From positions 1 to 55,911 of the forward strand of contig WYBR01000095.1 of NCBI GenBank assembly GCA_011525805.1: DNA of 55,911 nt. The letters run 5' to 3'. Shown here one piece after another: positions 22,771 to 49,400 of the stretch. The stretch is from Vicinamibacteraceae bacterium (GTDB taxonomy: Bacteria > Planctomycetota > Phycisphaerae > Phycisphaerales > UBA5793). Every line of letters begins with the position of its first letter. Position 1 is the first letter of the stretch. The notes beneath the pieces were generated by a model, which saw nothing but the letters and a program-made list of their open reading frames with translations, did not search any database and was not told the DNA's origin. The translations under genes were made by a program, and so were the position numbers.

Positions 22771-22892
22771 GAACCGGTTCCTTTCGGGTGTGCGGGAGTC
22801 AGGGTGAATCGAGGATGGTAGGGGGGCCGGGCGGCGGGGTCAGTCGGCGCGAACGCCTGCCGGACGGCGGCGGCGACCGGGCGGGGATCGTT

Positions 22893-22944
22893 CCATCCTT
22901 TCATCCGGATGAACGGTTGAAATGGCGGCAGGCCGCGCTATCCT
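22893..22944 (+). promoter_or_regulatory. metH promoter with overlapping interrupted palindrome (candidate methionine operator)
   Basis: A sigma-70-like promoter, TTGAAA (22917-22922), 16-bp spacer, TATCCT (22939-22944), precedes metH with a ~62-nt leader. A dyad centred at 22906/22907, half-site GGATGAAnGGnTG, covers 22893-22920 and overlaps the -35 box. The core ATCCGGATGAACGG plus flanking CCATCC and TGAA recurs upstream of metK at 49163-49191. Confidence 0.6.
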
Positions 22945-23012: not shown

Positions 23013-26000
23013 ATGAGTCTCTTCCTCGCTCAGGCTGCGCGGCGCATTCTCGTCTTTGATGGGTCGATGGGCGCCACGATCCAGGGAATGTCGCTGGAGG
23101 TCGAGCGCGACTACCTCGGCCGCGAGAACTGCGTGGATGTGCTCGTCCGCAGCCGGCCCGACATCGTGCAGGGCATCCACGAGTCCTTCCTCGCGGTCGG
23201 CGCCGATGCGGTTGAGACGGACACCTTCGGCGCCAGCCGCCACGTCTTCGCCGAGTTTGACGAGGAACTGGTCGGCTGGACGCGGGCGCTCAACCGAGAG
23301 GCGGCGGAGATCGCCCGCGCCGCGTGCGAGAAGCACCACAGCAAAGACAAGCCGCGATTCGTCGTCGGCTCGATCGGGCCCGGCACGAAACTCATCTCCC
23401 TCAACCAGATCACCTGGCCGCGGATGCTCGAGAGTTATGCCGAGCAGGTTCGCGGCCTGCTCGACGGCGGGGTGGATGCGCTGCTCATCGAGACGTGCCA
23501 GGACCTCCTGCAGGTCAAATGCGCCATCAACGCCTGCCTCAAGGCGCTTGATGAGCGCGGCAAGGGTCCGGGCGATGTGCCGATTATGGTCAGCGTCACC
23601 ATCGAGACGACGGGGACGATGCTGCTGGGCACGGAGATCGCCGCGGCGGTCCATGCGCTCAAGCCGTATCCCATCGCCAGCCTCGGATTGAACTGCGCGA
23701 CGGGCCCGGTGGAGATGGCCGAGCATCTCAAGGCGCTCTCGACGCTGTGGGACCGGCTGATCTCGGTGATGCCCAACGCGGGGCTGCCGATCATGGTTGA
23801 GGGGAAGACGACGTTTCCCCTCCAGCCGCCGGCGCTGCGCGAGTCGCTCGTGAAGTTCGTTGACGAGTACGGCGTGAACATCGTCGGCGGCTGCTGCGGC
23901 ACCGGACCGGAGCACATCCGCCTCGTCGCCGAGGCGATCGGCGTCCGCGCGCCACAGAAGCGGGGGGCGCGTATCAACGCATCCCACGATTCGCTCGAAG
24001 ACTCGCTCATCGTGGGCGTGGAGCGGAACGCGCGAAACGGCGGGGCGTGCGTCACCTCGCTCTACAGCCCCGTCGAGTGCCGGCAGGAGAACTCCTTCCT
24101 CATCATCGGCGAACGGATGAACGCCTCCGGCTCGCGCAAGTTCAAGCGCCTTCTCGAAGAGGAGAACTGGGATGAGATCGTCTCGCTGGCGCGCGAGCAG
24201 AAGCGCGAGGGGGCGAACGTCCTGGACGTGAACGTCGACTACGCCGGCCGGGACAACGCCCGCGACATGGCCGAGATCGTCTCGCGCGTCGTGCGCCAGG
24301 TGGACTGCCCGCTGATGATCGATTCGACGCAGATCGCCACGATCGAGGCGGGCCTGATGCATGCCGGCGGCAAGTGCATCATCAACTCCGCCAACTTCGA
24401 GGATGGGGAGGAGAAGTTCGATGCGATCGCCGCGCTGGCGAAGCGCTACGGGGCCGCGCTGGTCATCGGCACGATCGATGAAGACAAAGAGGCGGCGATG
24501 GCCCGCACCGCCGACCGCAAGTTCGCCATCGCCGAGCGTGCGCTGCGCCGCGCGACAGAGGTACACGGCCTGGCGCCGTGCGACCTCTTCTTCGACCCGC
24601 TCGTGCTGCCGATCTCGACGGGCATGGACAGCGACCGGCGCTCCAGCCTCGAACTGATCGAAGGGACGCGGCGCATCAGCCGGGCTTTTCCCGAGTGCCA
24701 GATCACCTGCGGCCTGTCGAACGCGAGTTTCGGCCTGCGGCCGGCCGCGCGAGTCGTGCTCAATTCGTGCCTGCTGCACGAACTGCTCGAAGCGGGGATG
24801 ACCAGCGCCATCGTCCACGCCTCCAAGATCCTGCCGCGCCACCGCATCAGCGACGAGCAGTGGGCCGCAGCGCTCGATCTCATCTACGACCGCCGTCACG
24901 AGTCGCGCGGCGGAACCGGGCTGCCCGAGGGCGTGAGCGCCGAGTCATTCGACCCCCTCCAGCGATTCATCGAACTCTTCAAGGGCGAAGACGCCGCGGC
25001 CCATGCGCTCGACGAACGCACGCTGACGCTGGAGGAGTCGCTCGCGGCGCACATCGTCGAAGGCGAGAAGCAGGGCCTGACCGCCCGCCTCGATGAAGCG
25101 CTCGAAAGGTACTCTCCGCTGGAGATCATCAACGATCACCTGCTGGGCGGGATGAAGACGGTCGGCGAACTCTTCGGCAGCGGGCAGATGCAGTTGCCCT
25201 TCGTGCTCCAGAGCGCCGAGGTGATGAAGATGGCCGTGGCGTATCTGGAGCCGCACATGGACAAGGTCGCGGGCGGCGGCCGCGGCTCGATCGTCCTCGC
25301 CACCGTCAAGGGCGACGTTCACGACATCGGCAAGAACCTCGTGGACATCATCCTCACGAACAACGGCTACACCGTGCACAACCTCGGCATCAAGCAGCCG
25401 ATCGCGTCGATCGTGCAGGCCCTTCGGGAGACGGGCGCCCTGGCGATCGGGATGAGCGGCCTGCTCGTCAAGTCGGTGGGGGTGATGGAGCAGAATCTGG
25501 CCGAGTTGAACGAGATGGGCATCGAGGCGCCGGTCCTGCTCGGCGGGGCGGCGCTGACGCGCAAGTACGCCGAGGGCCGGCTGCGCGGGCTGTACCGCGG
25601 CTCGCTCTACTACGGCCAGGACGCCTTCGAGGGGTTGCGCATCATGGAGGCGCTCACCTCGGGACGCGCCGAGGAGATCAATCGAGAGATTGAAGCGCGC
25701 CTCGCGCGTTTCGAGTCGAGCGCGAAACCGCAAGCGGCGTGCGGCAGTGAAAGCACGGCGGGCGCGGCGGGCACGTCGGGCGCGGTGGCGACGGCGGTGC
25801 GCGCGGAGACGGTCGAGACGGTGCAGGTTCCCGCCGCGCCCTTCTTCGGCACGCGCGTCGTTCAGTCGATCGACCTCGACGAGATCTACCCCTACATCAA
25901 CACGACTGCCCTCTTCCGCGGGCAGTGGGGCTTCAAGCGCGGCTCGCTCTCCGCCGAGGAACAACAGCGCACGCTCCGCGACACGGTCGAGCCGCTGTTT

Positions 26001-26621
26001 GAGCGGCTCAAGGCGCAGATGCGCGACGAAGGCATCCTCACGCCGCGCGTCGTCTACGGCTACTACCCGGTGCAGTCCGAGGGCGATGACCTCATCGTCT
26101 TCGACCCGGCGGACCATGATCGCGAGATCGAGCGATTCGCCTTCCCGCGCCAGGAGGAGCGCCGGCGTCTTTGCATCTCGGATTTCTTCCGGCCGCGCGG
26201 CGAGGGGATGAAGGATGTGCTCGGGCTGTTCGTATGCACGATGGGAGCGGAGGTCGGCGCCCTGGCGCGGCGGCTCTTCGAGAGCAACGAGTACACGGAG
26301 TACCTCTACGTCCACGGCATCGGCGTCGAGACGGCCGAGGCGCTGGCCGAGATGTGGCACAAGCGGATGCGGCAGGAATTGGGCATCGCCGGGGAGGATG
26401 ATCCGCAGATCCGCCGCCTCTTCAGCCAGCACTACCGCGGCAGCCGGTACTCGTTCGGGTATCCTGCCTGCCCGAACATGGAGGACCAGGAGATTCTCTT
26501 CCGCCTGCTCCAGCCCGAGCGGATCGGCTGCGCCCTGACGGAAAACTTTCAGATCGACCCGGAGCAGTCGGTGAGCGCGATCGTGGTGCATCACCCGGGG
26601 GCGAAGTACTTCAACGTGTGA
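23013..26621 (+). CDS. metH: Cobalamin-dependent methionine synthase, full length
   Basis: Product of 1202 residues from ATG 23013 (GCGGAG 9 bases upstream); E. coli MetH has 1227. Domains in order: homocysteine-binding barrel with Zn ligands in VGGCCGTGPEH; methyltetrahydrofolate-binding domain (FLIIGERMNASGSRKFK, then NVLDVNVDYAGRD); cobalamin cap (ERYSPLEIINDHLLGGMKTVGELFG); B12-binding domain with GDVHDIGKNLV, whose His coordinates cobalt; and the SAM-dependent reactivation domain (ALFRGQWGFKRG, YSFGYPACP). It transfers methyl from methyltetrahydrofolate to homocysteine. The linker before the activation domain is Ala/Thr/Gly-rich and contains an R2-like sequence at 25722-25737. Confidence 0.97.
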   Translation: MSLFLAQAARRILVFDGSMGATIQGMSLEVERDYLGRENCVDVLVRSRPDIVQGIHESFLAVGADAVETDTFGASRHVFAEFDEELVGWTRALNREAAEIARAACEKHHSKDKPRFVVGSIGPGTKLISLNQITWPRMLESYAEQVRGLLDGGVDALLIETCQDLLQVKCAINACLKALDERGKGPGDVPIMVSVTIETTGTMLLGTEIAAAVHALKPYPIASLGLNCATGPVEMAEHLKALSTLWDRLISVMPNAGLPIMVEGKTTFPLQPPALRESLVKFVDEYGVNIVGGCCGTGPEHIRLVAEAIGVRAPQKRGARINASHDSLEDSLIVGVERNARNGGACVTSLYSPVECRQENSFLIIGERMNASGSRKFKRLLEEENWDEIVSLAREQKREGANVLDVNVDYAGRDNARDMAEIVSRVVRQVDCPLMIDSTQIATIEAGLMHAGGKCIINSANFEDGEEKFDAIAALAKRYGAALVIGTIDEDKEAAMARTADRKFAIAERALRRATEVHGLAPCDLFFDPLVLPISTGMDSDRRSSLELIEGTRRISRAFPECQITCGLSNASFGLRPAARVVLNSCLLHELLEAGMTSAIVHASKILPRHRISDEQWAAALDLIYDRRHESRGGTGLPEGVSAESFDPLQRFIELFKGEDAAAHALDERTLTLEESLAAHIVEGEKQGLTARLDEALERYSPLEIINDHLLGGMKTVGELFGSGQMQLPFVLQSAEVMKMAVAYLEPHMDKVAGGGRGSIVLATVKGDVHDIGKNLVDIILTNNGYTVHNLGIKQPIASIVQALRETGALAIGMSGLLVKSVGVMEQNLAELNEMGIEAPVLLGGAALTRKYAEGRLRGLYRGSLYYGQDAFEGLRIMEALTSGRAEEINREIEARLARFESSAKPQAACGSESTAGAAGTSGAVATAVRAETVETVQVPAAPFFGTRVVQSIDLDEIYPYINTTALFRGQWGFKRGSLSAEEQQRTLRDTVEPLFERLKAQMRDEGILTPRVVYGYYPVQSEGDDLIVFDPADHDREIERFAFPRQEERRRLCISDFFRPRGEGMKDVLGLFVCTMGAEVGALARRLFESNEYTEYLYVHGIGVETAEALAEMWHKRMRQELGIAGEDDPQIRRLFSQHYRGSRYSFGYPACPNMEDQEILFRLLQPERIGCALTENFQIDPEQSVSAIVVHHPGAKYFNV

Positions 26622-47834: not shown

Positions 47835-49094
47835 TCAATCCGCACACGCCTTCCGCAGCGCCTCGGCCATGTCGGTCTTCTCCCAGGTGAAGCCCCCGTC
47901 GGCGTCGGGGGTGCGGCCGAAGTGGCCGTGGGCGGCGGTGCGCTTGTAGATCGGGCGGCGCAACTTGAGGTGGTCGATCAGGCCGCGCGGCGTGAGGGGG
48001 AAGAGTTCGCGCACCGCCTCGGCGATGCGATGCGGCGCCACCTTCGCCGTGCCGAAGGTGTTGACGTGCACGCTCGTCGGCTCGGCGACGCCGATGGCGT
48101 AACTCAACTGCATCTCGCACTTGTCGGCGAGGCCCGCGGCGACGATGTTCTTGGCGATGTACCGGGCCATGTACGCCGCGCTGCGGTCCACCTTCGTCGG
48201 ATCCTTGCCCGAGAAGGCCCCGCCGCCGTGCCGGCCCATCCCGCCGTAGGTGTCCACGATGATCTTCCGCCCCGTCAGCCCCACGTCGCCGTGCGGCCCG
48301 CCGATCTCGAAACGACCCGTCGGGTTGATGTGAACGCGGATGTCCTCGTTCCACCACGTGTCGCCGAGCACCGGCCGAATGATGTGCTCGCGCACGAGTT
48401 GCCGCAGGTCCGCCTGCGTCTTGTCGCTGCTGTACTGCGGACCGTGCTGCGTCGAGAGGACGACCGTGTGGACGCGCACCGGCCGGTCGTGCCGGTCATA
48501 CTCGACCGTCACCTGGCTCTTGGCGTCGGGGCGCAGGCCGGGAATGCCGCCCTGCTGCCGCACCTGCGCGTGGCGGTGCACGAGGCGGTGCGCCAGGTGG
48601 ATCGGCAGAGGCATGAACGTGCCGGGATCGAGTTCCTCCGTCTCGCGGCAGGCGAAGCCGAACATCATTCCCTGGTCGCCCGCGCCCTCGCGGTCGACGC
48701 CCAGGGCGATGTCGGGCGACTGCTTCTTGAGGCTGACGAGCACCGCGCAACTCTTGTCGTCAAAGCAGAGGTCGGCGTCGGTGTAGCCGATGTCGCGGAT
48801 CGTCTCGCGCACGAGGTCGGGCACTTCGACGTAGCCGTCGCACGTGACTTCGCCGGCGACGACCGCCATGCCGGTAGACACCATCGTCTCGCAGGCGACG
48901 CGCGAGCGCGGATCGACGGCGAGCATGGCGTCAAGGACGGCGTCGGAGATCTGGTCGGCGACCTTGTCGGGGTGGCCCATGCTCACCGACTCGGAGGTGA
49001 AGAAGTAGTTGGTGCCGGTGGGGCTGGCGGCAACGGCGGCGGGAGCGGGCTTGGTGCTGGTCATGGTTGAAGTCATGGTACCGGGGCTGGGCAT
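47835..49094 (-). CDS. metK: S-adenosylmethionine synthetase
   Basis: About 419 residues from ATG 49094; ATG 49076 or 49064 are equally possible as there is no clear ribosome site. MetK signatures: [20 protein letters not shown], the hexapeptide-type [12 protein letters not shown], and the P-loop-like [19 protein letters not shown]. It makes SAM from methionine and ATP in the cytoplasm and so closes the methyl cycle with MetH. The N-terminal ~25 residues are Ser/Thr/Ala/Pro-rich and unconserved. The palindrome shared with the metH promoter lies ~70 bases upstream. Confidence 0.95.
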
Positions 49095-49162: not shown

Positions 49163-49191
49163 TTCATCCGTTCATCCGGATATTGGGATGG
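49163..49191 (-). promoter_or_regulatory. Palindromic element upstream of metK, matching the metH operator
   Basis: On the minus strand: CCATCC, four variable bases, ATCCGGATGAACGG, one variable base, TGAA. Twenty-four of 29 positions equal the metH element at 22893-22921. A TTGACC (49200-49195) and a TATGAT (49210-49205) lie just upstream, but a well-spaced promoter could not be fixed. Confidence 0.55.
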
Positions 49192-49400
49192 ATTGGTCAA
49201 GGCGATCATAGGCGGCGCGGGGGGCGGGGGACAGGGGCTGGTGCCAAAGGCGGTCCCCCAGCGGATGAGCCTGGCGCGTCGATGAGTACATGGTGCTGAA
49301 TCAACAGATTTCGAAACAAATCATGATAGAATCCAGTTATGTGATGTGTGGCGAGTGATCCTTGGCTCCTCGCGGCCCCATTGAACGAAAGGAGTCTCCA
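49192..49400. other. Divergent region between metK and the repeat-protein gene
   Basis: No gene. TAGAAT (49327-49332) is a possible -10 box for the gene at 49401, leaving a ~60-nt leader that ends with AAAGGAG. The stretch 49280-49350 is AT-rich relative to the window. Confidence 0.45.

Follow-up and report, generated by a model that had tools for sequence, protein, structure and literature searches.

We identified a 30-bp palindrome upstream of metH and of metK in a 55,911-nucleotide stretch of Phycisphaerales DNA (the window; contig WYBR01000095.1 of assembly GCA_011525805.1). The palindrome is probably the operator of a SahR-like regulator, here called REG, that would control the genes of the activated methyl cycle and be released from DNA by S-adenosylhomocysteine (SAH), a judgement that covers the claims about operator, REG and effector together. 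Taken one by one, it is almost certain that the palindrome is a genuine operator belonging to a methyl-cycle regulon, very likely that REG is the regulator acting at it, and quite probable that SAH is the releasing effector.

Copies of the operator in the window and in the source genome

Both copies in the window lie where the original prediction had placed a dyad shared by metH and metK (Table 1). The dyad at metH holds, and its description can be refined: aligned sites give the consensus TTCATCCnTTCATCCGGATGAACGGATGAA, a 30-bp palindrome with the arms TTCATCCgTTCATCC and GGATGAAcGGATGAA, in which four GGATGAA half-sites are arranged two per arm with an 8-bp period. The half-site GGATGAAnGGnTG proposed originally comprises both GGATGAA units of one arm, and the copy at metK is also a full dyad, with a left arm weaker than that at metH. 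Within the window, CATCCNNNNATCCGGATGAANGGNTG with up to 3 mismatches matched at the metH and metK places only, each on both strands, and gave 0 matches in 100 shuffles of the window.

Table 1. Operators, promoter elements and genes in the window and on the ahcY contig of the source genome
Feature	Position	Strand	Support
Operator at metH, 30-bp palindrome	22892..22921	+	E 1.1e-6 genome-wide
24-bp core of metH operator, ATCCTTTCATCCGGATGAACGGTT	22895-22918	+	Sequence match
-35 box TTGAAA, overlaps right end of metH operator	22917..22922	+	
-10 box TATCCT, 16-bp spacer from TTGAAA	22939..22944	+	
metH, cobalamin-dependent methionine synthase, putatively regulated gene	23013..26621	+	Pfam S-methyl_trans, Pterin_bind, B12-binding, Met_synt_B12
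Operator at metK	49163..49192	-	E 3.1e-5 genome-wide
24-bp core of metK operator, ATCCCAATATCCGGATGAACGGAT	49166-49189	-	Sequence match
metK, S-adenosylmethionine synthetase, putatively regulated gene	47835..49094	-	Pfam S-AdoMet_synt N, M, C; start codon inferred
REG (P0001), 317 aa	L005:3255-4208, contig C77		ArsR-type winged helix and SAM/SAH-methyltransferase-like domain
ahcY, S-adenosylhomocysteine hydrolase	L005:5126-6625, contig C77		

In the whole source genome (4,542,082 bases, 138 contigs) we found ATCCGGATGAANGG at three places: metH, metK and C77:49528. The last of these precedes ahcY by about 100 bp, in keeping with the expectation of further matches at genes of the pathway. The 16-mer ATCCG-n6-CGGAT alone was too loose, with 2-25 matches per genome. 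Since the weight matrix used for the order (see below) had been trained on the upstream regions that it scanned, an independent test was made with R1, a sequence-only motif model from 69 sites in which the source genome and four genus mates were left out, and in which a few training sites from other genera may equal genus sites in sequence. In the source genome R1 matched at metH and metK (E values in Table 1) and at ahcY (E 9.1e-5), with no further place up to E 0.5. In 21 genomes scanned whole, R1 found 45 places at E<0.01, all 45 of them upstream of metH (19), ahcY (10), metK (8), REG (7) or metF (1), genes whose upstream windows amount to about 0.04% of the genome length.

Conservation in the order and overlap with promoters

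We scanned 400-bp upstream regions in 41 genomes of the order Phycisphaerales, using a weight matrix derived from the operator sites. The conserved position expected in orthologues was seen at metH, where all 39 regions carried the site and the weakest scored 19.6 bits, against a maximum of 17.4 bits in 3,940 regions of the shuffled control. The REG-ahcY unit had a site in 40/40 cases, which stood before REG in 24 and before ahcY in the remaining 16; in the source genus there was none before REG itself. Sites were also present upstream of metK (13/39 genomes) and of metF (5/39); the metF region of the source genome scored -14 at best and held none. Neither a random distribution in the genome nor a lack of conservation in relatives, the outcomes that were to count against the original prediction, was seen. 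In relatives, we also observed strong operator-like sites (30-37 bits) at G026:C16:491455 (L402), G035:C22:9381 (L403) and G035:C17:81609 (L404), with no methyl-cycle gene found downstream of these three; downstream of the L402 site come a promoter-like TTGACG-n17-TACCCT and then a gene with a PEP-CTERM-like end.

The well-spaced promoter predicted at metH, with a TTGAAA box overlapping the palindrome, was recovered in full (TTGAAA, 16 bp, TATCCT), and the last half-site of the metH operator serves at the same time as the -35 box. Across the order, metH operators ending in the half-site GGTTGA (the -35 box) have TAnnnT 16-18 bp downstream in 13/13 genomes, and those without GGTTGA have it at this distance in 1/26 (Fisher p 1.7e-9, uncorrected for the relatedness of the genomes). 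Operator and -35 box are here fused, GGAT becoming GGTTGA where the promoter requires it. A TTGnnn-n16..19-TAnnnT promoter was found at ahcY in 13 of 16 genomes and at REG in 12 of 24, the -10 box abutting or replacing the left outer half-site; at ahcY of the source genome it reads TTGCCC-n17-TACACT. Both positions of the operator, over the -35 box at metH and at the -10 box for ahcY and REG, would suit repression through a block of RNA polymerase. The original reading as a putative repressor site for methionine/SAM genes is supported by the third place at ahcY, by the conserved position at metH and by a regulator gene near ahcY. At metK, members of the genus conserve a TATGAT/TATCAT hexamer that lies upstream of the operator by about 16-21 bp (window 49205-49210, minus strand), and given this hexamer the metK operator may sit just downstream of the transcription start.

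The candidate regulator REG

The original prediction had also expected a linked regulator gene, and we found REG encoded 0.9 kb upstream of ahcY and 1.6 kb from the third operator, on another contig than metH and metK. The source genome has seven HTH_5 (ArsR) matches, REG among them, and the six further proteins count against taking it as the sure regulator. A homologue, one strong copy each, is present in 40 of the 41 genomes of the order and usually adjoins ahcY. REG and ahcY are adjacent in most relatives, unlike in the source genome, where a nucleotidyltransferase (NTP_transf_2) and HepT-like gene pair (Pfam; L005:4254-4938, contig C77) lies between them; this pair is likely a MntA/HepT toxin-antitoxin module.

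REG joins an N-terminal ArsR-type helix-turn-helix (Pfam HTH_5 and HTH_20, 17-61) to a C-terminal class I methyltransferase-like domain (Methyltransf_11, 160-253). In the class I fold, SAM or SAH is held by residues of motif I and by an acidic residue that follows strand 2, and in 39 REG orthologues the motif-I residues D160, G162 and G164 and the acidic D183 after strand 2 are invariant. The cysteines of the ELCVCDL-type ArsR metal site are absent (the aligned motif is ELGVGEL), and no HTH-domain cysteine is conserved across the 39 REG sequences. An AlphaFold model of REG has a mean pLDDT of 90 and a pTM of 0.62, and the latter makes the arrangement of the domains less sure. Its best Foldseek matches in the PDB are structures, with SAH and without it, of the winged-helix methyltransferase Rv2258c. 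Searching the PDB by sequence gave separate ArsR or methyltransferase matches only, with no solved relative over the full length.

REG and its operator in other phyla

When 84,980 genomes were scanned with the REG alignment, 80 named loci emerged, from Planctomycetota, Gemmatimonadota, Acidobacteriota, Latescibacterota, Myxococcota (Anaeromyxobacter oryzae) and also from some Pseudomonadota MAGs. ahcY is present in 67 of the 80, and in 63 of these 67 the operator stands before REG or ahcY, in most loci from other phyla before REG. No site of at least 18 bits was found elsewhere in 728 kb, and none in reversed-sequence controls. Of the 294 genomes sampled from Planctomycetota, 94 carry a homologue of REG at E 1e-40.

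In a tree built without the validated Desulfovibrio SahR, the bearers of the GGATGAA operator group together, with support 91 for 119 rows and 97 once two more Planctomycetota are counted in. Five alphaproteobacterial SahR-like proteins (100) and a further twelve planctomycetal proteins (99) stand apart from this group. Two records, L315 (labelled Cyanobacteria) and L303 (labelled Micrococcales), fall among Phycisphaerales in this tree and are probably misbinned or mislabelled MAGs. The named alphaproteobacterial sahR-metF loci carry palindromes of the ACATAAAGATATCTTTATGT type. Four loci of other Planctomycetota (L398, L399, L400, L401) have dyads of the TTCATCAnnnnATCATGATnnnn type before REG-ahcY, with the same layout around a ATCATGAT centre, a hint that the half-site switched in a lineage. 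On a Leptospira interrogans plasmid (L371:5834-12307), an ArsR-methyltransferase gene, ahcY and metH lie in a row with the palindrome ATATCAAGATATCTTGATAT just upstream, a locus that, judged by sequence, may represent SahR-like control in Spirochaetota. The evolution of one operator can be traced in this way, from GGATGAA to the forms that sister clades have, centred on ATCATGAT or on GATATC.

Proposed mechanism and alternative readings

We propose that REG dimers would bind two GGATGAA half-sites per arm of the 30-bp palindrome, presumably two dimers per site, and that bound REG would cover the -35 box at metH, or the -10/start region at ahcY and REG, and block RNA polymerase. SAH, on accumulating, would bind the methyltransferase-like domain; REG would then leave the DNA and the genes for SAH hydrolysis and for methionine and SAM regeneration would be switched on. 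The genes under such control would be those of the activated methyl cycle, metH, metK and ahcY, together in relatives with metF and REG's own operon. Against the proposal count the missing site before REG in the source genus, the gene pair that lies between REG and ahcY, the placement of REG in another clade than the alphaproteobacterial SahR-like proteins, and the few strong sites in relatives that no methyl-cycle gene follows.

The same operator and regulator could instead respond to SAM as a corepressor, in a SamR-like manner, with REG binding at high SAM and shutting metH and metK. We consider this unlikely: metK is a target in the source genus, SAM as well as SAH could fit the methyltransferase-like domain, and the SamR of Xanthomonadales has been proposed as a SAM sensor (PMC4239095), but metK is targeted in only 13 of 39 genomes, ahcY is absent from SamR regulons (PMC4239095), and it is the SAH-consuming ahcY that is the near-universal target and the linked gene, as for SahR. 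It is less probable still, to a marked degree, that another transcription factor uses the operator and REG just happens to be encoded beside ahcY. The binding of REG to the operator is something we infer, and 16 genomes of the order have the site before ahcY and not before REG; against this, 24 genomes of the order, and most loci of other phyla, have the site before REG, and across phyla the operator is found nearly wherever the REG-ahcY pair is (63/67 loci).

An RNA element, for example a new SAM or SAH riboswitch, is very improbable and largely refuted. The consensus can be drawn as a 13-bp stem with a CCGG loop, as a leader hairpin would have, but pairing over the 69 sites (73.4%) does not differ appreciably from that of shuffled ones (73.1%), two-sided changes occur in 6 pairs versus 7.9 when shuffled, and no Rfam match exists in the window. 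Moreover, such an element would be untranscribed at metH because the -35 box overlaps its right end. A dispersed repeat or a chance likeness of two upstream regions has a negligible probability, with nothing found in its favour, and is rejected, as there are three places in 4.54 Mb, all in one pathway, and the site is conserved at metH in 39/39 regions.

Comparison with known systems

If REG is an SAH-released repressor as proposed, its mode of action resembles that of SahR, and REG probably belongs to the SahR family in the wider sense. Novichkov and colleagues (2014) reportedly described the effector domain of SahR as methylase-like, with SAH releasing SahR from DNA. REG likewise fuses an ArsR-type helix to a methyltransferase-like domain. 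SahR is an SAH-responsive ArsR-family regulator of ahcY, metH, metF, metK and sahR in Proteobacteria, which acts at a 20-bp palindrome of lineage-specific sequence; the palindrome of the related SamR spans 24 bp, and ATC-10nt-GAT is common to both (Leyn et al. 2014, PMC4239095). In Ensifer aridi, SahR-like sites precede ahcY, metH, bhmT and metK, and sahR expression peaks in a sahR mutant, which was read as autoregulation (PMC8877191). The core regulon (ahcY, metH, metK, metF and the regulator gene) and the linkage to SAM-cycle genes are shared with REG. The operator is palindromic in both systems, and here ATC-10nt-GAT fits each 16-bp half, so that it is met twice per consensus operator. The two differ in that a 24-30-bp palindrome with four GGATGAA half-sites is found here in place of the 20-bp one, in that the named alphaproteobacterial operators are of another type (ACATAAAGATATCTTTATGT) and REG falls in a separate clade, in that the REG type occurs in Planctomycetota, Gemmatimonadota, Acidobacteriota and others, and in that the source genus has no site before the regulator gene.

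SamR of Xanthomonadales is similar as a SahR-like ArsR protein with a 24-bp palindrome and with metH and metK among its targets, but its regulons lack ahcY, a main target here, and include further genes of methionine biosynthesis, metB, metE, metX2 and hom (PMC4239095). In the 21 genomes scanned with R1, no place at E<0.01 lay outside metH, ahcY, metK, REG and metF, unlike the metB/metX/hom regulon of SamR.

MetJ, MetR and McbR likewise control methionine/SAM genes at the DNA level, but their protein families differ from that of REG. The MetJ operator, AGACGTCT, is unlike GGATGAA. SAH and SAM riboswitches share the pathway and the effectors, whereas here the window had no Rfam match and the sites no RNA covariation. 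From the metal-sensing ArsR/SmtB proteins REG differs by its lack of the conserved cysteine metal-site motif.

A literature search of limited scope found no description of SahR-type control in Planctomycetota, and DNA-level control of methionine/SAM genes appears not to have been described before in Planctomycetota, Gemmatimonadota, Acidobacteriota and neighbouring phyla. The novelty claimed for the operator can be kept for its sequence, its four-half-site layout and the phyla concerned, which appear undescribed, and has to be given up for the type of regulator and the content of the regulon, which are those of SahR (PMC4239095). What emerges is a sequence-defined regulon for SAM/SAH homeostasis in mostly uncultured phyla, for which both a 30-bp operator and a candidate regulator gene can be named. 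The chances are about even that these proteins are a distinct and widespread subfamily of SAH-sensing ArsR-methyltransferase regulators, whose four-half-site operator loads two dimers over the promoter and which govern the methyl cycle across Planctomycetota, Gemmatimonadota, Acidobacteriota and neighbouring phyla. SahR-type control would in this way reach well beyond the Proteobacteria, where existing papers describe it.
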